From Chitinophagaceae bacterium (GTDB taxonomy: Bacteria; Bacteroidota; Bacteroidia; Chitinophagales; Chitinophagaceae), in assembly GCA_947380905.1 (NCBI GenBank), contig CANCSS010000002.1, forward strand, positions 1 to 64,000: a stretch of 64,000 nt of DNA, in the 5' to 3' direction. Of the stretch, positions 3,601-31,111 are shown in pieces. The translations under genes and the position numbers were made by a program. Numbering within the stretch: position 1 is the first letter of the stretch; each line of letters begins with the position of its first letter. The notes under the pieces were generated by a model. The model did no database searches and was not told where the DNA came from. It saw only the letters and a list, made by a program, of their open reading frames with translations.

Positions 3601-4605
3601 GTTTTTACTTATTTGGATAGACGCTGGAACAAATGGTACTAGATACTTATTTGAAGAATCAATGATAGGTAAAGTTTGTGTCCATGTTGATCCATTGTCT
3701 TCTGATCTATATAAACCAAGATTTTCTGTATTGGTAAATTTACCCATATAGTAGTTGGCATCAATTGCAGCATAAACAACAGTTTCACTATTTTCGTGCC
3801 TAATAACCATATCGTTAGAATATAGAAAATTCTTTGTTGAAGTAAGTTGCGACCAACTAACTCCTCCATTGGTGGTCTTCCAAATACCAGCTCCGATGGA
3901 AGCAGCTGCTCCATACCCCTCCCCCGTTGTCACATAAGCAACCTTTTTGTCTAATGTATCAAATACAATTTTATTGATAGATAGTGATTGCCAAAAGTCA
4001 TCCACTTTATTCCATACAGAGGCTGAATTAGTAATATCATTATTAAACCATAAGCCACCGCCAACTCCCCCTGCCCATACTTTTTTTCCACTACTATCAT
4101 TGGGGTCCCAGGTTAAAGCCCTAGTTCTACCTCCAACATTATTGGGACCTAATTCAACCCATGGCGCACTTGATGATGATCCTGGAATAGCAAAGGCTTT
4201 ATTATTTGATTTTAATTTAAAATAGTTTTGATTAATGATATCTGGAAGTAATTCTGGTGTAGGTCTTTTAAGGTCAAGATTCATGGTTCTATAAAAGTCC
4301 TGTTCAAATGCTTTGTCAGGTCCGTCCTGCTCAAGTGCTTTATTTTGCTCCCCTCTTTTTTCTTCTATTATTGTAAGCTCTTGGTTGCTTTTTAAAAAGG
4401 CTTGATAATTAGTAACATTTTTAATTTTTCGAACGTATACATTGGTTAATTTATCATTTACTGGATGAACTACATATTCAATTTTAGGAATTAATTTATT
4501 TAGGGTAATATTTTTTTTATCAAATTTTTTATTACTAACTATTAAAATAATTGACAATAATACTGGGAATATATAAAATAGTACTTTTTTAAAATTAACT
4601 TTCAT
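640..4605 (-). CDS. Large secreted protein with sortilin/VPS10-like BNR repeats, IPT/TIG domains and a T9SS type A sorting domain
   Basis: 1321 aa; repeated Asp-box motifs (SxDxGxTW), IPT-like segments (PPEIISFTPKIGLNGTKISIKGTNF), C-terminal LAPNPFVNHLNF...LSAGTYLIRVASNDGKINYQFKMVKL typical of Por secretion signals. Confidence 0.85.
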   Translation of the reverse strand: MKVNFKKVLFYIFPVLLSIILIVSNKKFDKKNITLNKLIPKIEYVVHPVNDKLTNVYVRKIKNVTNYQAFLKSNQELTIIEEKRGEQNKALEQDGPDKAFEQDFYRTMNLDLKRPTPELLPDIINQNYFKLKSNNKAFAIPGSSSSAPWVELGPNNVGGRTRALTWDPNDSSGKKVWAGGVGGGLWFNNDITNSASVWNKVDDFWQSLSINKIVFDTLDKKVAYVTTGEGYGAAASIGAGIWKTTNGGVSWSQLTSTKNFLYSNDMVIRHENSETVVYAAIDANYYMGKFTNTENLGLYRSEDNGSTWTQTLPIIDSSNKYLVPFVPASIQISKNNTIWVGTKQSPISNANRGGGYILKSLNGMDWVVVKKINVGNGYGRVTIAVAPSNEKIIYAYVENYGRLENLYRSDDEGLTWTTLSKPIDADIGVPSNDFTRGQAWYDQSLAVDPNNPNVVIVGGIDLFKTIDGGITWSQIGKWYNWNAKYSYVHADQHVVSYKPGSSNTALFGNDGGVFYTTNLQNADTLNVINSRNNGYNVTQFYAAAIHPNAGKNFFLAGAQDNGTQKFLSPTFSASKEVTSGDGAFCFIDQTNPKYQISSSKYNTYFLSTDSGVSFSIKLIDTILGSFINPASYDPIQHILYSNSSSNYLVRVKNITGTPNMENVSVPNLINQVTALRVSPYNHLSTTIFLGTNSGQLLKVVNADSIPSSTLIGGASFPAGSISCIEIGASENELLVTFFNYGSKKIWYTSDGGKNWVDKMGNFPDIPVRWALFNPNKMLSQVILATELGVYATNNFETASPTWAQSNNGFSNVRTDMLQLRSADYAVIAATHGRGLFFNSSFSEAKPPEIISFTPKIGLNGTKISIKGTNFLNASEVRFGGLPALSFKVEADTLITAVVGIAFPGYVNVKTTGGIAALSGFSTSPPKLNSFLPKSGGNGIPITISGTNLTDITKVIIGGRVVKSFTVESSSTISTIIPDSTTNGNVVISNDFYTDSLTGFVTCATPTLSKINDTSFCNGNVLQISASSASQYQWLNNNTSIANAINQSFKIVTTGTYQVKTTDNSCSALSNPFKVTVNALPTAPIVKDTFYCQNSNITDTFKVGFSTGNTLLWYGIDTVGAAASSIIPKPNSANIGFQNFYVSQKNTKTGCEGSKSKIIVEIRPIPATPLIFRDTSNYLVSNVALKSLWYKDGVTLNDTTQKLKPNLAGSYSVKSSTLGCNSVMSAAYYYLVTDIVNLSQDEFIKLAPNPFVNHLNFDFVVKGYQKLNMEAFDLASGTKVLSMPNLTPGIPIYVGQLSAGTYLIRVASNDGKINYQFKMVKL

Positions 4606-7199: not shown

Positions 7200-8744
7200 C
7201 TATTTCCTGGTTTTCACTTCTCCTTTAGATTGTTCTATTAAAGATGCTAATTTTTTGACAAGAGCAGGATACTTTTCTGCTAAATTGTAATGCTCACCCC
7301 TATCATTTTTAAGATCATACAACTGAGGCTTTACATCATTCCCGGTTTCTATGTTCACATCTTTATTGTATGCACGCATTGTATTGGGTACAATATATTT
7401 CCAGTCTCCTTTAGTAATTGCGAATCCGCCCGAATGCTCTATTACATAGTCTCTCCCTTTTTTATCATTACCAAGCAAGGCCTCCAATTGATTGTAACTA
7501 TCAGGCGCATCTGCTTCTTTCAATCCTTGCCCAACCAAAGCATTCAGCGATGCAAATAAATCAACTTGACTTAACAATGCATCCGTTTTTTCGCCCGCCT
7601 TTACCTTTCCAGGCCATTTTACAATAAAAGGCACCCTGGTTCCTCCTTCAAAAATGCTGTATTTACCTCCGCGTAAATCACCAGCTGGTTTGTGATCGCC
7701 CAATTGTTCAACTGATTGATCAAAATAACCATCATTCACTACTGGTCCATTATCGCTACTTATAATAATCAAAGTATTATCGGTCAGGTGCAGATGGCGC
7801 AAGGCTTCTTCTATCTTACCAACTGTATAATCCAATTGCAATATGGCATCTCCCCGCATACCCATACCGCTTTTACCTCTGAACTTACTGTCGGGATAAC
7901 GTGGTACATGAATATCTCCAGTGGCAAAATAAACGAAAAAAGGTGCAGCTGCATTCCTTTCCATAAATTGAATGGTTTTATCCGTGATGGTAGCTGCAAT
8001 GTCTTCATCTTTCCAATATGCACTATGCCCACCACTCATCCATCCAATTCTACTAATACTATCTACAATCGTTTGATTGTGCCCTTGCGTAGGATCAGGT
8101 TGATAACGAAGCATTTCAGGATTTTCTTTTCCTGTCGGATCATTGCCTATTTTATTTTTATAACTTACTGTTATGGGATCTTTACTATCTAAGTTCACTA
8201 CCCTTTGATTTTCTAAAAATACACAGGGCACTCTATCCAGGGTGGCAGGCATGATAAATGAATAATCAAAACCCAATTCTTTAGGACCTGGCTTGATTCG
8301 CGTATTCCAATCAATCCCTTCATCGGTGCCTAATCCTAAATGCCATTTACCAATTACTGCAGTTTTATATCCTGCCGTATGTAAAGTGGAAGCCAAGTTG
8401 CCTCTATCTAATGGAACGATCAATGCTGCATCTCCTGGCGCTACCCCTGTTCCATTTTGTCGCCAAGGATACCTTCCAGTTAACAAGCCAAATCGGGAAG
8501 GAGTGCAGGTAGCAGAAGTAGTATGTGCATTGGTGAATAAAAGTCCTTCCTTAGCAATATGATCGATATTAGGTGTTTGAATTTTTTTCATCCCATAACA
8601 ACTCAAATCACCATAACCCAAATCATCCGCGTAGATGATTATGATATTGGGTTTTAACGCCCTATGACTTTTTGTGTTGTCTTGTGATGATGCTTGCAAA
8701 AAAATCAAAGTCCCTAAAAAAACAATCGAACCAATCTTTTTCAT
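7200..8744 (-). CDS. Sulfatase (arylsulfatase-like, Cys-type)
   Basis: NIIIIYADDLGYGD N-terminus; formylglycine motif C-T-P-S-R in TTSATCTPSRFGLLTGRYPW; signal peptide. Confidence 0.93.
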   Translation of the reverse strand: MKKIGSIVFLGTLIFLQASSQDNTKSHRALKPNIIIIYADDLGYGDLSCYGMKKIQTPNIDHIAKEGLLFTNAHTTSATCTPSRFGLLTGRYPWRQNGTGVAPGDAALIVPLDRGNLASTLHTAGYKTAVIGKWHLGLGTDEGIDWNTRIKPGPKELGFDYSFIMPATLDRVPCVFLENQRVVNLDSKDPITVSYKNKIGNDPTGKENPEMLRYQPDPTQGHNQTIVDSISRIGWMSGGHSAYWKDEDIAATITDKTIQFMERNAAAPFFVYFATGDIHVPRYPDSKFRGKSGMGMRGDAILQLDYTVGKIEEALRHLHLTDNTLIIISSDNGPVVNDGYFDQSVEQLGDHKPAGDLRGGKYSIFEGGTRVPFIVKWPGKVKAGEKTDALLSQVDLFASLNALVGQGLKEADAPDSYNQLEALLGNDKKGRDYVIEHSGGFAITKGDWKYIVPNTMRAYNKDVNIETGNDVKPQLYDLKNDRGEHYNLAEKYPALVKKLASLIEQSKGEVKTRK

Positions 8745-8768
8745 TTTACTTTACTATATATCTACTAA

Positions 8769-9224
8769 TTATTTCTTTCTAAGTTCATATCGAATAGAAT
8801 CAGGATACCCCGATGCGAAAACATAATTCACTTTCTTATTTGCATCAAAAAAGAACTCTAAAGTTTTTAAATTGGCTACTTCAAATAATGGGCCTAATGT
8901 ACTTGCTCGATTTGGACTGGCTGGAACATCTGTTCTTGATACCATTAATCGGCCTTGCTTATCAACTATATTACTATTTTGCACACTACCAATATAACTT
9001 GATTGAATATTTTTAGGAACCCTATAAGTACTAAAATCATAAAATAATTTATACCCTAATTCTACTTTCTCCTTCCTTTTAAAGTCTCCTAATTTCGAAA
9101 CCACCTCCTCTTCTGATTTATTCACCCAACGATCGGTCTGGATTTCGCTCATAGTAATAATTATTTTCTTGTAGGGTGAACAAGAAATGAAAAACATTAT
9201 AACAACTAGTAGCGCTATTTTCAT
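8769..9224 (-). CDS. Small lipoprotein, possibly BamE/SmpA-like
   Basis: Lipobox-like FFISCSP; fold type assigned from general pattern only. Confidence 0.45.
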   Translation of the reverse strand: MKIALLVVIMFFISCSPYKKIIITMSEIQTDRWVNKSEEEVVSKLGDFKRKEKVELGYKLFYDFSTYRVPKNIQSSYIGSVQNSNIVDKQGRLMVSRTDVPASPNRASTLGPLFEVANLKTLEFFFDANKKVNYVFASGYPDSIRYELRKK

Positions 9225-12043: not shown

Positions 12044-12901
12044 ATGGTCAATTTCATCTGGGTCATTTTAGTATTGTTTGCCATTTGGTTTATTTACATC
12101 TTAACGACCGATTACCTAAAACACAAAAATGAATTAGAAGACGTTAGTTGGATCAAAACTGGACTGATTGGTTTTTTAGTTAATTTTTTTGATGTATTAG
12201 GCATTGGTGCATTTGCACCACAAACCGCCTTATTAAAATTTTCAAAACAAACTTCAGATAAATTGATTCCGGGAACCATGAATGTTGCTAATACAATTCC
12301 TGTTTTAATTCAAGCTATTATATTCATTAAAGTAATTGAAGTAGAGCCCATAACTTTAATAGTAATGTTTTTAACGGCTATGGGTGGAGCCATGATAGGT
12401 GCTGGCATCGTAGCCAAACTTTCGGAGAACAAAATTAGATTAACGATGAGCATTGCTTTGTTAATTACGGCCGGATTTATGCTTGCTAATAAATTACATT
12501 TAATACACGGTGAAGGAGTTGCCATTGGAATTCATGGTTGGAAATTAGTAATTGCCGCTGTAGTTAATTTTATTTTGGGAGCAATGATGACAGCAGGTGT
12601 TGGCTTGTATGCACCATGTATGGCTTTGGTTTTTTTATTGGGATTATCCCCTCAAGTAGCATTCCCGATTATGATGGGATCTTGCGCATTTTTAATGCCT
12701 CCAGCCTCTTATAAATTTATTAAATCTGGGGCTTATAATCGAAAAGCGGCTATAGGCATGGCCATTCCTAGTATCATTGCTGTACTAATTGCGGCTTTTA
12801 TTGTAAAATCACTGCCCTTAGATACGCTTCGCTGGTTGGTACTTTGTATTATTTTATATACCTCCATTACCATGTTCTGGAGTGCGATAAAAAACAAATA
12901 A
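12044..12901 (+). CDS. TSUP family transporter (TauE/SafE-like permease)
   Basis: 285-aa polytopic protein with two related halves (GFLVNFFDVLGIGAFAPQTALL...; NFILGAMMTAGVGLYAPCMALVFLLGLSP). Confidence 0.8.
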   Translation: MVNFIWVILVLFAIWFIYILTTDYLKHKNELEDVSWIKTGLIGFLVNFFDVLGIGAFAPQTALLKFSKQTSDKLIPGTMNVANTIPVLIQAIIFIKVIEVEPITLIVMFLTAMGGAMIGAGIVAKLSENKIRLTMSIALLITAGFMLANKLHLIHGEGVAIGIHGWKLVIAAVVNFILGAMMTAGVGLYAPCMALVFLLGLSPQVAFPIMMGSCAFLMPPASYKFIKSGAYNRKAAIGMAIPSIIAVLIAAFIVKSLPLDTLRWLVLCIILYTSITMFWSAIKNK

Positions 12902-12954
12902 TTACAATTTGATACCGTATATTTTGTAAATTTAATACAGCTAACAAGTTAACC

Positions 12955-14532
12955 ATGCCTAATTATCCAAGTATATTTAACGATGTCATTGGTCCAGTGA
13001 TGAGAGGGCCATCCAGTTCTCATTGTGCTGCATCGCTTCGTATTGCTCGAATAGGTCGTGACTTAATGGAGGAAAGTATCAAAGAAATTTTAATTGAATT
13101 TGACCCAAACGGCTCTTTGGCCACTACGCACAAAAGCCAGGGATCAGACATGGGTTTATTTGGTGGATTTTTAGGCTGGGAAGCTTATGACGAACGCTTA
13201 CCTGAATCAGAAAAATATTTGGCTACGGCTGGCATCAATTATTCCATTCAAATTTGCACGTTAGAAGAAAAACATCCCAATACTTATCAAATAACTTTAA
13301 CTAACGAAAAAGAAACGCGCTCATTGATTGCTATTTCAACTGGTGGCGGAATGATTGAAGTAATAAATATTGATGGTAATAAAGTTTCTATAGCGGGTGA
13401 TTATTATGAAACACTTATTTATTGTAACGACGCAGCTACTATTATCCCCTATCTAAAATCAACCCTCAGTTTCGATGAGCTTCTATTTCATAAAGGGGAA
13501 AAATCATTCATAGAAATTAAATCTCAAAATAATATTCCAGCTGTCATTTGTTCAGAGATCATGCAAATGAATTCGGTTACTGCCATCAAAAGTATTAAGC
13601 CAGTACTCCCCATCATGGCAAGAAAAGATCTAGCAGTGCCCTTCATTACTTGCAATGAAATGTTGGAATACAATAAAGATAAAAATAAAGCGCTTTGGGA
13701 ATTGGCAGTTGATTACGAAAGTATTAGAGGAAATATTAGCCCTGAAACAGTCCTGGATAAAATGAAGTCCATTATTCATATTATGGGCAATGCAATTGAA
13801 ACTGGATTAAAAGGTACTACTTACAAGGATCGAATTTTAGGGAGTCAATCGCCCGAATATAAAAAAAGCTTGGAATCCAACTTATTAATTGGTGGTGACG
13901 TACTTAATAAAACTATTATGTATGTGTCGGCGATTATGGAAGTGAAAAGTTCCATGGGAGTGATTGTTGCGGCACCTACGGCTGGCTCTTGTGGAGGTTT
14001 GCCAGGCGTTGTATTTGGAACTGCCCATTGTATTAACAACAATGAAGATGCCATTATTAAAGCCATGCTGTCTGCAGGACTAATTGGTGTATTTATTGCA
14101 GCACATGCCACATTTGCTGCCGAAGTGGGTGGATGTATGGCGGAAACTGGTTCAGGTGGTGGAATGGCTGCGGCGGCTATTGTTGAGATGAATGGTGGAA
14201 GTTTGAACCAATCTATTGCTGCTGCTTCTTTGGCATTACAAAATTCATTGGGTATTATATGTGACCCAATTGGAAATAGAGTGGAAGCCCCTTGTTTGGG
14301 TAGAAATGTAATGGCTGCTACGAATGCAATTTCTTGCGCGAATATGGCTTTGTCTAATTACGAACATCTAATTCCATTAGACGAGGTCATTGAAACTATG
14401 AAAGCTGTTGGCGATCAAATTCACCACACTTTAAGATGTACCAACTTGGGTGGCTTATCTATTACTAGCACCGCTAAAAAAATAGAAGCCCTACTCGAAG
14501 AAAATCCTCCGGTATTTTACAAAAGCTGTTAG
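12955..14532 (+). CDS. sdaA: L-serine ammonia-lyase, iron-sulfur-dependent, single-chain
   Basis: SIFNDVIGPVMRGPSSSHCAASLRIARIGRDL; AAPTAGSCGGLPGV; CDPIGNRVEAPCLGRN. Confidence 0.92.
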   Translation: MPNYPSIFNDVIGPVMRGPSSSHCAASLRIARIGRDLMEESIKEILIEFDPNGSLATTHKSQGSDMGLFGGFLGWEAYDERLPESEKYLATAGINYSIQICTLEEKHPNTYQITLTNEKETRSLIAISTGGGMIEVINIDGNKVSIAGDYYETLIYCNDAATIIPYLKSTLSFDELLFHKGEKSFIEIKSQNNIPAVICSEIMQMNSVTAIKSIKPVLPIMARKDLAVPFITCNEMLEYNKDKNKALWELAVDYESIRGNISPETVLDKMKSIIHIMGNAIETGLKGTTYKDRILGSQSPEYKKSLESNLLIGGDVLNKTIMYVSAIMEVKSSMGVIVAAPTAGSCGGLPGVVFGTAHCINNNEDAIIKAMLSAGLIGVFIAAHATFAAEVGGCMAETGSGGGMAAAAIVEMNGGSLNQSIAAASLALQNSLGIICDPIGNRVEAPCLGRNVMAATNAISCANMALSNYEHLIPLDEVIETMKAVGDQIHHTLRCTNLGGLSITSTAKKIEALLEENPPVFYKSC

Positions 14533-24790: not shown

Positions 24791-24848
24791 GATTTTTAAC
24801 GATTGCTTGCTTAAACCAATAAACCTGAACTATAAAAAAACTTAAATT

Positions 24849-25868
24849 TTAAAACCGATACACTGCAGCAAGTAAGAAATTGCCAGCATAAGGATTTAAG
24901 TGATTGTTATTATTTATAAATATCTTGTCTTTAGCATTATCAAACCTTATTTCAGGTATTAAAGTCAACTTTGCAAAGTGAATGTTTGCAGAAAATGTAT
25001 TTTGAAAAATAGAGGTCCCCACCCCTGCAGCGCTTTTGGTGTCATCAAAAAATTCCGTTCTCCAAGTAAACCCAAATTTTGAAACTGGATCATAATTTAC
25101 ATAAAACGCATGGCTGCTCCAGTTAGCGCCAGCTATATTAGCAACAGTACCGTCATAATTAATTCCAATTTGGCTGGTCACCACTCCATTTAATACCAGA
25201 TCAAATTGAGATTTGTCTTTGCCTCCTTGATAATTCAAAAAAGCTTTTAATTGATTATCTCTAGTTCCAGTACTAAATTGAGCAATGAGCATTTTATTGG
25301 GGGAAGAAGTACTTACAAAATCAGTGGGTTGCGCCACTCCAATCATCAGGGCCGACTTACCACCTAATGCGATATCTGCTCTAATACCTGTATGAAAGAA
25401 AGGACCATAGGTATATCCATAGCTGGTACTATAGTTTCTATTAGAATAAGCGTCTAATGATTCATATCCAATATGGGTAGCCCATTTTCCTACGGTAAAC
25501 TTGATGCTTGAATTAGGTGAATAACTTATCAATACCTGTTTGAACATCGTTGCCACCCCAACATCATTGTGAGAAAATTCCTCCGTTCTTTTACCCACTC
25601 CTAAATCAATGGTAGTCGCAAAATTTCCCAAAGTTTTATCTACTTTAAAAGAAGCCATCCCTAATTGTAATGCGTTGCTAGAATTGGTAAAGCTTGTTTT
25701 ATTATTTTCCGATTTACTAGCAAAGTCGCCTTTATAATAACCATCTATATAATAAGTATAGGTGGTCGAACTGCTTAGTGCAGTTGGCAACATTTTTGAA
25801 GTATCCACTTGAGCCATTGATTCAATAACTAACATAAGGCCTAATAATAATGACATTGCTTTTTTCAT
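24849..25868 (-). CDS. Outer-membrane beta-barrel porin
   Basis: Signal peptide; TYTYYIDGYYKGDF...VGKWATHIGYESLDAYSNRNYSTSYGYTYGPFFHTGIRAD; C-terminal strand ending in F. Confidence 0.75.
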   Translation of the reverse strand: MKKAMSLLLGLMLVIESMAQVDTSKMLPTALSSSTTYTYYIDGYYKGDFASKSENNKTSFTNSSNALQLGMASFKVDKTLGNFATTIDLGVGKRTEEFSHNDVGVATMFKQVLISYSPNSSIKFTVGKWATHIGYESLDAYSNRNYSTSYGYTYGPFFHTGIRADIALGGKSALMIGVAQPTDFVSTSSPNKMLIAQFSTGTRDNQLKAFLNYQGGKDKSQFDLVLNGVVTSQIGINYDGTVANIAGANWSSHAFYVNYDPVSKFGFTWRTEFFDDTKSAAGVGTSIFQNTFSANIHFAKLTLIPEIRFDNAKDKIFINNNNHLNPYAGNFLLAAVYRF

Positions 25869-26262
25869 AGCTTGTAGGGTAGAATTATTTATATTATATT
25901 TTATTATATATATAATAATTAATAGTTATTTTAACTTTTAATTTAATATCATATTAATGCATTTTTATAATTATTATAATAAATTATTCATTTTCAATAT
26001 TTTATGAAAAATATATTCATATTATATTTATATTTAATTTAAAATAATAATGCTAAATTAACTAATTTTTTGTATTTTATGAAACTTTGATATATATATT
26101 TATTTAATTAATATTATATATTGATAGTTGTTTAAGTATCTATTTTCTAATAGTATATATCATCAAACAAAAAATGATGGCTAAATAATCTAATTAATTA
26201 GATATCAGGCAAATAGCAGAAAAAATCGTAAATTGAGAATAGTGACTATTTAGTTATCCATT

Positions 26263-27531
26263 ATGCCAAATAAAGAACCCACAGCCGCTGGCAACGATAT
26301 CAAATTTGAAGCCCTTTTCAATTCTGCTACTATGGCTATTATAGTAGTAGACAAGCAAGGCGTGATTGTCATGGCCAATGAATATGCTAATTCCCTATTT
26401 GCATACATGAATGATAGCATGGTGGGACAATTGTTAGAAACACTAATTCCTCAACGTTACCACCACAATCATGTCGGTCACCGCAATCATTATATAGAAC
26501 AACCCAAGGCCCGTACTATGGGATTAGGCATGACGCTTTCGGCACAAAGAAAAGATGGAACTGAATTCCCTGTTGAAATTAGCTTGGGTCATTTTAAAAC
26601 TGGCCTGGAACAATTTGCTATCGCTTATATAGCAGACATTACTAAAAGGAAACAAAGTGAAGAAAAGATAATACTACAACAGGCTGAAATGGAATTGGTA
26701 AATGAAGAAATGAAAAAGCTAAATGCCAATTTGGAAGCAACGGTTGATTCAAGAACCAATGAACTTCAGATTACTTTGAATGCACTAAAAACTTCTAAAG
26801 AAGAGCTCACGCTATCCTTAGAAAAAGAAAAAGAAGTCAACGACCTAAAATCAAGATTCGTTTCAATGGCCTCTCATGAATTTAGAACGCCATTAAGTAC
26901 CATTCTTTCTTCCATCTCCTTACTTTCTAAATACATTTCTACCGAAGAACAACACAAAAGAGACAAACATATTGACAGAATTAAATCCTCGGTTAAAACA
27001 CTTACCGATATTTTAAATGAGTTTCTATCCCTAGGTAGAATTGAAGAAGGAAAAGTAGATGTAAAAGCTGAAGAATTTAACATTACTGCCTTTTTCAATG
27101 ACACTATTAATGAAATGTCTGTTTTACTTAAATCAGGTCAAAATTTTAAATACGAGCAATTAGGCTTAATAAATACTTACACTGATAGCAACTTACTAAA
27201 ACATATTATGATTAACCTCATTTCCAATGCCATCAAGTTCTCCCCTGAAAATTCAATAATATCCATAGAAACGGAGGTTACTATAAATACTACTACTATA
27301 AAAATTACTGACAATGGCATTGGCATTCCAGCAAGTGACCAAATTCATTTATTTGAACGTTTTTTTAGAGCCACCAATGTCACCAACATTCAAGGGACTG
27401 GACTTGGACTTCATATAGTAGGCAGGTACATAGAAATTTTAAAAGGTACGATCAATTACTATAGTGAATTTGAAAAAGGAAGCACTTTTGAAATTCAATT
27501 GCCCACTAAAATGACAAACGATTTTGATTAA
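26263..27531 (+). CDS. Soluble PAS-domain sensor histidine kinase (FixL-like PAS)
   Basis: PAS core LIPQRYHHNHVGHRNHY...MGLGMTLSAQRKDGTEFPVEISLG; HisKA FVSMASHEFRTPLSTI; HATPase N/G boxes NLISNAIKFSP, DNGIGIP, GTGLGLHI. Confidence 0.9.
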   Translation: MPNKEPTAAGNDIKFEALFNSATMAIIVVDKQGVIVMANEYANSLFAYMNDSMVGQLLETLIPQRYHHNHVGHRNHYIEQPKARTMGLGMTLSAQRKDGTEFPVEISLGHFKTGLEQFAIAYIADITKRKQSEEKIILQQAEMELVNEEMKKLNANLEATVDSRTNELQITLNALKTSKEELTLSLEKEKEVNDLKSRFVSMASHEFRTPLSTILSSISLLSKYISTEEQHKRDKHIDRIKSSVKTLTDILNEFLSLGRIEEGKVDVKAEEFNITAFFNDTINEMSVLLKSGQNFKYEQLGLINTYTDSNLLKHIMINLISNAIKFSPENSIISIETEVTINTTTIKITDNGIGIPASDQIHLFERFFRATNVTNIQGTGLGLHIVGRYIEILKGTINYYSEFEKGSTFEIQLPTKMTNDFD

Positions 27532-27546
27532 AAAATATAAATTAAT

Positions 27547-28608
27547 ATGGAAAAAATTTTACTGATAGAAGACAACGAAGCATTAAGAGAAAATACTGCA
27601 GAAATTCTCAGCTTGGCCAATTACAAAGTAAGCACTGCCGAAAATGGTAAAATTGGTGTTGAAATGGCCATGGCAAATCCTCCCGATTTAATTGTGTGCG
27701 ACATCATGATGCCTGTACTAGATGGATATGGGGTATTTCAAATTTTAAGTAAAAACGCCGATCTACAACATATCCCCTTTATTTTTTTAAGTGCCAAAAG
27801 CGAAAGAAATGATTTACGCAAAGGCATGGAAATGGGCGCTGATGATTATATAACTAAACCCTTTTCTGATTCGGAATTGATTAATGCCATTCGTGCACGT
27901 ATTGAAAAAGTGAAAATGCAACAAAACGTGGGTGGCCACGGCATTGAAGCTTGGTACCAAATCATTTCCGAATTAGGCAATAAAGATGAAATGTATAAAG
28001 CATTAGAATCACACGATGTTATCGACTATAAGAAAAAACAAATCATTTATTCCGAAGGACAACATCCTAATAAACTTTATTACATAGAAACTGGGAAAAT
28101 TAAAGTGTACAAAACTAGTGACGGTGGTAAAGAATTAATCACTGGACTCTTATCCCCTGGTGACTTTTTTGGACATATCCCACTCATTGAAAATGCAGTA
28201 TATGAAGAATTTGCAGAAACATTAGAAGAATCCTCTATTAGAGTAATCCCAAGAAAGGAATTTGAACATCTACTTACCCATAACCAAGAAGTCGCATTAA
28301 AAGTAATTAAACTGCTCGCCAATAATATTTCAGAAAAAGAACAGCAATTGGTTGCTTTGGCCTACCATAGTTTAAGAAAAAGAGTCGCTGATGCTTTACT
28401 TACCTTAAAAAAGAAGTATGCAAAAGAAAATGATACTGAAAACTTTTCTATCTCCATCTCTAGAGAAGATTTAGCCAATATTGCCGGAACCGCTACGGAG
28501 AGTTTAATAAGAACCCTAAGCGATTTTAAATCAGAAAAATTAATTGAAATTAAAGAAGGTAAAATTGTAATCCTTGACGAAAAGAAATTAGCTAACTTAT
28601 TTAATTAG
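27547..28608 (+). CDS. Response regulator with N-terminal REC fused to a CRP/FNR cNMP-binding and HTH module
   Basis: REC: ILLIEDNEALREN...DLIVCDIMMPVLDG...KPF; cNMP: IIYSEGQHPNKLYYIETGKIKVYK; HTH_Crp: ISREDLANIAGTATESLIRTLSDFKSEKLIE. Confidence 0.92.
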   Translation: MEKILLIEDNEALRENTAEILSLANYKVSTAENGKIGVEMAMANPPDLIVCDIMMPVLDGYGVFQILSKNADLQHIPFIFLSAKSERNDLRKGMEMGADDYITKPFSDSELINAIRARIEKVKMQQNVGGHGIEAWYQIISELGNKDEMYKALESHDVIDYKKKQIIYSEGQHPNKLYYIETGKIKVYKTSDGGKELITGLLSPGDFFGHIPLIENAVYEEFAETLEESSIRVIPRKEFEHLLTHNQEVALKVIKLLANNISEKEQQLVALAYHSLRKRVADALLTLKKKYAKENDTENFSISISREDLANIAGTATESLIRTLSDFKSEKLIEIKEGKIVILDEKKLANLFN

Positions 28609-28648
28609 CAAGTTGATTAATCCTCTTCCCTCAGAAAGAAATGACTTG

Positions 28649-29026
28649 TTAAATAAGAGTAGTATCAAATCTTTCATTGACATCGTTTTTCCAAATCATA
28701 AATTGCTTTTCCAAGTAAACCACTTGTTGTTTGTACTTTTTAAAATCAAGTACTAGACTAGCATCGACTATATTATTGATTGATTTGGTTGCTTTTGTCT
28801 TATTTCGCAAAGCCACTATATCACTTTTTAATAATTTGATGGCAGTTTCTCTATTAATGATTTGTAATTGTAAATCTTCGGCCCATTCGATAAAATCATG
28901 CATAACCATATTCTCCAGAAGGCTGCTAAGCTTTCTCTTAATAAAGGCCTGCTCCTCCTGTATAAAGTCCAATGACCTTACTAATGATTCTATTTCTTGC
29001 AACACAATTTCTTTGTTCATAACCAA
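28649..29026 (-). CDS. Hypothetical coiled-coil-rich protein
   Basis: 125 aa ORF immediately downstream of the chimeric ORF; no recognised domain. Confidence 0.55.
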   Translation of the reverse strand: MVMNKEIVLQEIESLVRSLDFIQEEQAFIKRKLSSLLENMVMHDFIEWAEDLQLQIINRETAIKLLKSDIVALRNKTKATKSINNIVDASLVLDFKKYKQQVVYLEKQFMIWKNDVNERFDTTLI

Positions 29027-29398
29027 TTAATTATGGCAATGCACCGCATTGATGCCAATACCTAAATGTGGGCTAATAAAAGGTATACCCAAATTCATCC
29101 CTCTAAGAACTAGCAGTAGTCCCATACTGAAAATAAATAGAGGTAAGATAGATTGTAACCTTTGCCTAAAAACGATACCAAAATACTGTCCTCCTAAAGC
29201 CACCATGATTAATGCTGGAACAGTTCCCATTCCAAAAAATATCATTAACAACCCTCCATGAATTACACTTTGAGTGGCCAATGCCGATGTCAATGCCAAA
29301 TACACCATACTACACCCATTGCAACAAAAAAATTTGTCTTGCAAAAGAATGCTAGAATCACATTCCAGCCCACAGTGATAACATTTTTGTAATGACAT
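29027..29398 (-). pseudogene. Chimeric ORF: N-terminal CcoI-type P-ATPase metal-binding segment fused in-frame to the C-terminal half of a TauE/SafE-family (cco locus) protein
   Basis: KCYHCGLECDSSILLQDKFFCCNGC is CcoI-like; MVYLALTSALATQSVIHGGLLMIFFGMGTVPALIMVALGG...LPLFIFSMGLLLVLRGMNLGIPFISPHLG matches the second half of cco-cluster sulfite-exporter-like proteins. Confidence 0.7.
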
Positions 29399-29454
29399 GC
29401 TTACAACAAAAATGATTCAAAGAGGTTACATCATTACTGAGTGGCGTCATTTTA

Positions 29455-29476
29455 AAAACTGATATTCATCAGTTTT
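29455..29476. promoter_or_regulatory. Palindrome AAAACTGAT-attc-ATCAGTTTT: FNR-box-like site and/or weak terminator of the S41 gene
   Basis: Perfect 9-bp arms; core CTGAT-N4-ATCAG resembles TTGAT-N4-ATCAA; on the minus strand it is followed by TTTTT-AAAA. Confidence 0.45.
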
Positions 29477-31046
29477 AGGGAAGCATTTGCTTGAAATTAG
29501 GATCCAATGCATTTTGCACTTCAATAAAGCCTTGTTTGTACCAATGCGTTCTTGCAACCAAGGCACGTATTTGATTTTCAACAAAGCCTTTATTTTTTTC
29601 GAGGGCTTTTAACTTATTTTTCTGCACTGGACTTGCATAGTTGTACAATGCACCCCAATAATTGTAGGACGCTGTCTGCTTCAAAAAAGCAATAGGATTT
29701 TTTTGCGCCTCCATCATTTTGTTATTTTGTACATACCAATGCAATACAAAATCATTCAACAGGCCATCTTCCCACAATACCTTATAATTGGTATCCATTT
29801 GAATGGATACACCATTGACCCATTTATCGGGATAAATGCCCCCTCCTCCATAAACCAAATGTCCTTTAGGAGTTTTAAAAGAAGGGCCTTTAAAACTGGA
29901 GTCCTGCTTCCCCAATGCATCTTCATGCAATCTTGTAATAAAATCATTTTCATATTCCTGCTTGCCTTGCGCGTAAGGCCTTTGTATATTTCTACCTAGA
30001 GGTGTGTAATATTTTGCTGTGGTCAATCGCAAAGCACCTCCATTGGACAATTTAAATTGTTGTTGCACCAATCCTTTTCCAAAAGAACGCCTCCCAACAA
30101 TGGTTGCCCGGTCCCAATCTTGTAATGCACCAGCCAACACCTCACTTGCAGAAGCAGCGGTTTCATCCATTAAAATAGTTAACCCCCCTTGCTCAAACAG
30201 GCCTTCTCTTTTACTAAAATAATCTACGCGTGGTGAATGCACCCCTTGTGTATACACGATTAATTTATTTCCACTTAATAATTCGTCGGCAATACCTACT
30301 GCTTCCGATAACAATCCACCCCCATTGCCTCTTAAATCGATTACTAAAGATTTCATGCCCTTTTTCAACAAAGGCTCCAATGCTTGCATGAATGCCTCAT
30401 ACGTTCGGTCTGCAAATTTATTGATACGGATGTAACCAAGAATACTGTCTATCATATAACTCGCATCTACCGAAGAAACGGAAACATGGTCCCTGGTAAT
30501 GACAAAAGATTTTTTCTCTCCCAAACGATTGACCAACAATTTAACTTTGCTATTGGCTGGCCCTTTTATTTTTTTTCGAATGTCATCGGCATCCCATTTT
30601 TTCCCAGACAATTGTATGCTATCATCTGCATTTAAAAGAATGTCTCCGATTTTTAAACCGGCTTTATCTGCTGGGCCTTCTTTCATTACATACGCTACAA
30701 AAACACTGTCTCTGAATTGTTGAAATTCAATACCGATACCTTTAAAATTAGGTTGCAATTGCTCATTTACCTCATTTAAATCGGCAGGTGGGATGTATAC
30801 AGAATGAGGATCTAGCTGGGCCAAATAATAATTCGCCACTCTTATGCCTGCGCTATCATTGGAAACTGAATCTACATATTTCGAATTAACCAAATCAATC
30901 ATTTCCTGAATGGGTTGTTGGCCATTGTTTGTAAAAGACCCTACATTAAAATTTCCTTTAAAAAAGACGCCAATCAAAATGCCAACAATGACCAAAAAGC
31001 CATAGAACAGAGGTTTGACCCAATTCAGATTATTATTTTCTTGCAT
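29475..31046 (-). CDS. S41 family C-terminal processing peptidase
   Basis: PDZ segment GIGIEFQQFRDSVFVAYVMKEGPADKAGLKIGD; SLVIDLRGNGGGLLSEA; DETAASASEVLAGALQDWDRATIVGRRSFGKG. Likely start is internal MQENNNLNW (ORF track starts at 31097). Confidence 0.92.
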   Translation of the reverse strand: MQENNNLNWVKPLFYGFLVIVGILIGVFFKGNFNVGSFTNNGQQPIQEMIDLVNSKYVDSVSNDSAGIRVANYYLAQLDPHSVYIPPADLNEVNEQLQPNFKGIGIEFQQFRDSVFVAYVMKEGPADKAGLKIGDILLNADDSIQLSGKKWDADDIRKKIKGPANSKVKLLVNRLGEKKSFVITRDHVSVSSVDASYMIDSILGYIRINKFADRTYEAFMQALEPLLKKGMKSLVIDLRGNGGGLLSEAVGIADELLSGNKLIVYTQGVHSPRVDYFSKREGLFEQGGLTILMDETAASASEVLAGALQDWDRATIVGRRSFGKGLVQQQFKLSNGGALRLTTAKYYTPLGRNIQRPYAQGKQEYENDFITRLHEDALGKQDSSFKGPSFKTPKGHLVYGGGGIYPDKWVNGVSIQMDTNYKVLWEDGLLNDFVLHWYVQNNKMMEAQKNPIAFLKQTASYNYWGALYNYASPVQKNKLKALEKNKGFVENQIRALVARTHWYKQGFIEVQNALDPNFKQMLP

Positions 31047-31111
31047 GCTATATTTTATTCGGGCTAAAATTACACTAAAATGGCTATTTTCACACACAAG
31101 AGTGACAAGCT

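Follow-up and report, generated by a model that had tools for sequence, protein, structure and literature searches.

In a freshwater Bacteroidota draft assembly (G000; 55 contigs, estimated to be 82% complete), a 123-codon open reading frame begins like CcoI and ends like SafE, two proteins of the cbb3 oxidase (cco) locus. Is this frame a gene, an error of assembly, or what is left of a lost operon? The initial annotation of the window (the whole stretch of DNA analysed, 64,000 nucleotides) read it as the deletion scar of a cco cluster, and nearly every detail of that reading was upheld by the intact locus of relatives, by a junction lying in a stretch similar in both genes and by the nesting of G000 among species that carry cco. 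We hold with high confidence that the fusion is the scar of a one-step deletion of the cbb3 operon, most likely a young and non-functional relic, next to a regulatory module that is under constraint.

Anatomy of the fusion frame

The frame and its parts are as follows.

29027..29398, minus strand: CcoI::SafE fusion ORF (123 aa), read as the product of a deletion of about 8.38 kb (Pfam, full-length proteins of relatives, nucleotide alignment)
29315..29398, minus strand: CcoI-derived part, the N-terminal metal-binding segment, with Cys 6, 9, 13, 25 and 26 (Pfam, protein comparison)
29299..29314, minus strand: junction, a stretch of about 16 bp, TGTAGTATGGTGTATT, matching both ccoI (Cys-x-Met-Val-Tyr) and safE (Cys-Gly-Met-Val-Tyr) (nucleotide alignment)
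29027..29314, minus strand: SafE-derived part, equivalent to SafE residues 144-238 of the near relative G081, with 89% identity to it

The translation begins MSLQKCYHCGLECDSSILLQDKFFCCNGCSMVYLALTSAL and joins CcoI residues 1 to about 33, in frame, to SafE residues 144-238. Pfam comparison revealed a match of residues 5-38 to ATPase-cat_bd (PF12156; E 1.6e-5, at 26 bits narrowly short of the cut-off, 27) and of residues 29-94 to DsbD_2 (PF13386; E 1.8e-12) at profile positions 133-198 of 199; the SafE side covers only the last third of this profile and does not amount to a full-length DsbD_2 region. The core of a P-type ATPase is not present in the ORF. Among 61 related genomes, residues 4-36 matched frames of about 800 aa and residues 28-123 matched frames of 230-270 aa. 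When the whole ORF was used as query, many of these genomes gave two matches on the same strand, separated by about 8.5 kb: a protein of about 240 aa was matched at its end and a protein of about 800 aa at its start. Matching the two halves separately thus led to two different full-length proteins, and the earlier assignment of residues 1-29 to the CcoI-type metal-binding segment and of the remainder to the C-terminal part of SafE was confirmed on both sides. The CcoI part showed 53-64% identity with the CcoI N-termini of near relatives, and all six cysteines of this segment are kept, Cys 29 lying within the junction.

The intact locus and the deletion

An intact locus is present at the same syntenic site in the nearest relatives, G081, G092 and G020 (loci L063, L167 and L122), and also in G074. 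Its order is CTP peptidase, ccoI, ccoS, ccoNO, ccoQ, ccoP, ccoG, ccoH, safE and a second gene of 123 codons (hereafter the 123-aa gene), beyond which REC-CRP and PAS kinase genes lie convergent with the operon, as seen in L063. Locus L063, assigned to G081 by its 100% identical CcoNO, encodes a CcoI of 798 aa, a fused CcoNO of 705 aa and a SafE of 238 aa, and carries ORFs of 60 and 55 aa in the places of ccoS and ccoQ, which these short ORFs fit. CcoNO and CcoG of the intact locus were named above cut-offs by NCBIfam. Comparison with relatives carrying the intact locus, as proposed at the outset, thereby placed the full cluster, ccoS- and ccoQ-sized ORFs included, at exactly the site of the fusion. 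The window retains the following neighbours.

26263..27531, plus strand: PAS-HisKA-HATPase sensor kinase, proposed partner of REC-CRP (Pfam)
27547..28608, plus strand: REC-CRP response regulator (Response_reg + cNMP_binding + HTH_Crp_2), proposed binder of the tandem boxes (Pfam)
28649..29020, minus strand: the 123-aa gene, starting with ATG at 29020 and closing the ancestral cco operon; its product is predicted to be a three-helix bundle
29438..29471: two tandem boxes of CRP-family type (TGA-N6-TCA), with a start-to-start distance of 22 bp, in the ancestral ccoI promoter region and now upstream of the fusion
29475..31097, minus strand: C-terminal processing (CTP) peptidase (S41), conserved left neighbour of ccoI, marking the boundary of the locus

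The DNA of the window is collinear with L063, L065 and G020 at 79-84% identity, with one gap at the cco locus (window 24848-29314 corresponds to L063 14463-10001, and window 29299-30920 to L063 1633-11). Locus, neighbours, promoter boxes and gene ends are thus the same as in the intact Chitinophagaceae clusters (L063, L167, L122), but G000 lacks the roughly 8.38 kb that run from ccoI codon ~29-33 to safE codon 144. A second gap relative to L063, near window position ~24840, is a separate observation: amtB (ammonium transporter; L063 14501-16060), present between a porin and an M28 peptidase in L063, G020 and G114, has no counterpart there in the window, a further small loss close to the scar.

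The alignment partner switches within window 29299-29314, where the two sides of the gap overlap by about 15 bp and no Ns were found in the sequence. Joining Cys29 of CcoI to Cys144 of SafE corresponds to the removal of about 8.38 kb, as measured on G081, G074 and G020. The join is encoded as C-K-M-V-Y in ccoI and as C-G-M-V-Y in safE (TGTAAAATGGTGTATT versus TGTGGAATGGTTTATT in G081, and TGTAGTATGGTGTATT in the fusion); the two genes agree at 13 of 16 positions in G081, and their longest exact repeat is 9-12 bp in four relatives. The junction had been predicted near 29300-29320, between joining points that look alike; the position was right to within a few bases and the junction lies inside the similar stretch. 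Both genes read this stretch in the same codon phase, and therefore a deletion guided by it would be in frame automatically, an outcome that needs no selection. Hence the frame, described as "preserved", is indeed open and in frame, but is not to be taken as selected.

A single deletion, most likely by short-homology (slipped-strand or illegitimate) recombination across the ~16-bp stretch of ccoI and safE, removed about 8.38 kb: most of ccoI, the initial 60% of safE, and ccoS, ccoNO, ccoQ, ccoP, ccoG and ccoH in full. It left an in-frame 123-codon ORF beneath an ancestral ccoI promoter region that is still intact. Illegitimate, RecA-independent recombination between short direct repeats is a known route of gene loss, and genome streamlining is known in freshwater bacteria. 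The present case is likewise an operon loss, apparently in a single step, at a short and imperfect homology, and the genome is small and belongs to a clade that has repeatedly lost the same function. Unlike in ordinary short-repeat deletions, both ends lie inside genes and in the same phase, giving a readable chimeric ORF behind the old promoter. The scar is a well-documented example of an already known kind, and its added value lies in the comparison across losses.

Function, assembly and ancestry of the fusion

Comparison with G081 gave dN/dS values of 0.03 (REC-CRP), 0.04 (123-aa gene), 0.07 (kinase) and 0.16 (SafE remnant), all of them rough since synonymous sites are near saturation in some pairs. 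The kinase, REC-CRP, tandem boxes and 123-aa gene are still constrained. The value for the remnant falls within or near the range of other, intact SafE pairs (0.07-0.25), and a three-taxon estimate, made by hand from pairwise values, was about 0.18 on the G000 branch. Free drift over most of the branch would have resulted in far higher dN/dS; therefore, either the deletion probably happened late compared with the species split, or some constraint acts on the remnant. Over 23 codons, the CcoI part was 52-65% identical to its counterparts in close relatives, as compared to 74-96% among the relatives themselves; accelerated evolution was considered, but the difference is uninterpretable given the 23 codons and the normal variability of the CcoI N-terminus.

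Could the fusion be a functional new gene, for a small membrane protein with a Cys-rich head on the last SafE transmembrane helices that is made from a low-oxygen promoter and, for example, binds copper? The open frame, the retained boxes, the six cysteines and the apparent constraint on the SafE part (dN/dS 0.16) would all suit such a protein. However, the join needs no selection to be in frame, the fusion lacks the first 143 residues of SafE, the fold predicted from the single sequence is of low confidence (pLDDT 68.6, pTM 0.33), and, if the deletion is young, the signal of constraint mostly predates it. Moreover, with the DNA around the fusion as query, the fusion was found in only one of 147 genomes of the genus, G000 itself, which rules out the reading of it as a conserved gene encoded by many genomes. 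We regard a functional fusion as improbable; the protein would most likely be a young, non-functional relic, at most a translated leader for the downstream 123-aa gene.

Still less probable is an artefact of assembly or binning, in which two separate pieces of an intact cco locus were misjoined. The assembly is a draft of 55 contigs, yet the join lies inside a contig of 128.8 kb with both flanks in the ancestral order. There are no Ns, the stretch shared by ccoI and safE is imperfect, and since the exact repeats of 9-12 bp are far below an assembler k-mer, a misjoin was judged unlikely. Three other lineages show clean losses at the same locus, and CcoNO and CcoP were found on no other contig of the G000 assembly. 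The search for ccoNOP that the initial annotation had called for thus returned no ccoNO or ccoP elsewhere among all contigs of this 82% complete assembly; cytochrome bd was not found in it either, nor a close CcoI, the nearest being a 28%-identical P-ATPase on another contig. COX1 was matched once, by a 604-aa frame on contig 22; because this frame resembles CcoN at only 25% identity, and over a short stretch, we take it to be an aa3-type oxidase, the sole terminal oxidase found. It is likely that cco is absent from the rest of the genome, the completeness of 82% leaving room for a copy on a missing contig.

That G000 never had cco, the short ORF being an old independent gene, fits the absence of cco and nothing else, and is already contradicted by tree and synteny, as G000 is nested within cco-carrying species, the two halves each go back to a full-length gene of this locus and the promoter boxes are kept.

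In trees of four to five flanking proteins, G000 falls inside the cco-carrying group with SH-aLRT of 97-98; its state is therefore a loss and not an ancestral absence. The presence of cco changes 7-9 times on the tree (8 to 9 changes are needed, and at least 7 are forced by well-supported branches), and the deletion in G000 is one of repeated cbb3 losses in a small-genome clade. The oxidase was mostly lost together with the regulator, as at the cco locus of G030, G110, G079, G016, G121, G028, G078 and others. Four lineages, G000, G007, G114 and G159, are without the oxidase but keep the regulator, the 123-aa gene and the tandem boxes. In the latter three, the CTP peptidase is followed directly by the 123-aa gene, and REC-CRP is kept; the boxes stand directly upstream of the 123-aa gene (L132 of G007, 8740-8899; L177 of G114, 12548-13023; L204 of G159, 12927-13030). 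Permissive tblastn for cco remnants in the clean-loss genomes gave only weak, chance-like matches. In G007, the PAS kinase beside the intact REC-CRP is split between two frames (L132 10334-11588), which may mean either a sequencing error or a sensor that has begun to decay. A limited keyword search of the literature found no paper on this cco locus or on these losses.

The regulator, the tandem boxes and the 123-aa gene

The pair of boxes at 29438-29471 is the only one with 22-bp spacing in the window. Of 28 relatives, 22 carry a pair 22 bp apart, placed 70-75 bp ahead of ccoI; ahead of ccoNO, a pair with a spacing of 21-22 bp was present in 22 of 26. Base-shuffled sequences gave means of 0.0 (ccoI) and 0.005 (ccoNO); paired palindromes are thus conserved before both genes, as in a CRP-family promoter. 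In L063 the pairs lie at 1461-1494 and 3934-3967, before ccoI and ccoNO, at sites orthologous across the clade. All four lineages found with the regulator but without cco have kept the boxes (before the 123-aa gene in G007, G114 and G159), and no 22-bp pair occurred in 11 loci lacking both cco and the regulator. The tandem boxes are a strong candidate for the binding signature of REC-CRP, and, judged from sequence, the 22-bp spacing would fit REC-CRP dimers two helical turns apart.

In Proteobacteria, cbb3 oxidases are controlled by FixL/FixJ-FixK and by FNR/ANR, and the FNR box is TTGAT-N4-ATCAA. Here too a sensor kinase adjoins the cluster, and the CRP-family palindromes TGA-N6-TCA before ccoI and ccoNO are FNR-like. 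In contrast to those systems, a single protein combines receiver and CRP parts, the boxes come in twos with a spacing of 21-22 bp, and the regulator is accompanied by a three-helix protein that has no name.

The gene for this protein was found in 38 of 147 genomes of the genus, all 38 of which carry a close REC-CRP orthologue; the orthologue itself was counted from the lists in 39 genomes, the extra one being G170, where the contig is broken. In the loci examined, the 123-aa gene is retained where the oxidase alone was lost and is gone where the regulator is gone. Its product was modelled as a confident three-helix bundle (pLDDT 90.5). No family was found for it in Pfam, NCBIfam, PDB-sequence or PDB-fold searches, and its best PDB fold matches were designed three-helix bundles with E > 0.1. 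We propose tentatively, at slightly less than even chances, that REC-CRP, the PAS kinase, the tandem-box promoter and the 123-aa protein may make up a module of its own for the response to oxygen or redox state, one that has outlived its oxidase in at least four lineages, the 123-aa protein being an unrecognised partner or output of the regulator.

The locus offers a clear snapshot of a respiratory operon for a low-oxygen enzyme vanishing, apparently in one step, and the recurrent loss can be compared stage by stage, from intact, to oxidase gone with the regulator kept, to both gone. The retained regulatory module is of more interest than the fusion itself. The comparison also brings to light a promoter signature that is conserved and a gene without a name whose presence follows the regulator and not the oxidase.
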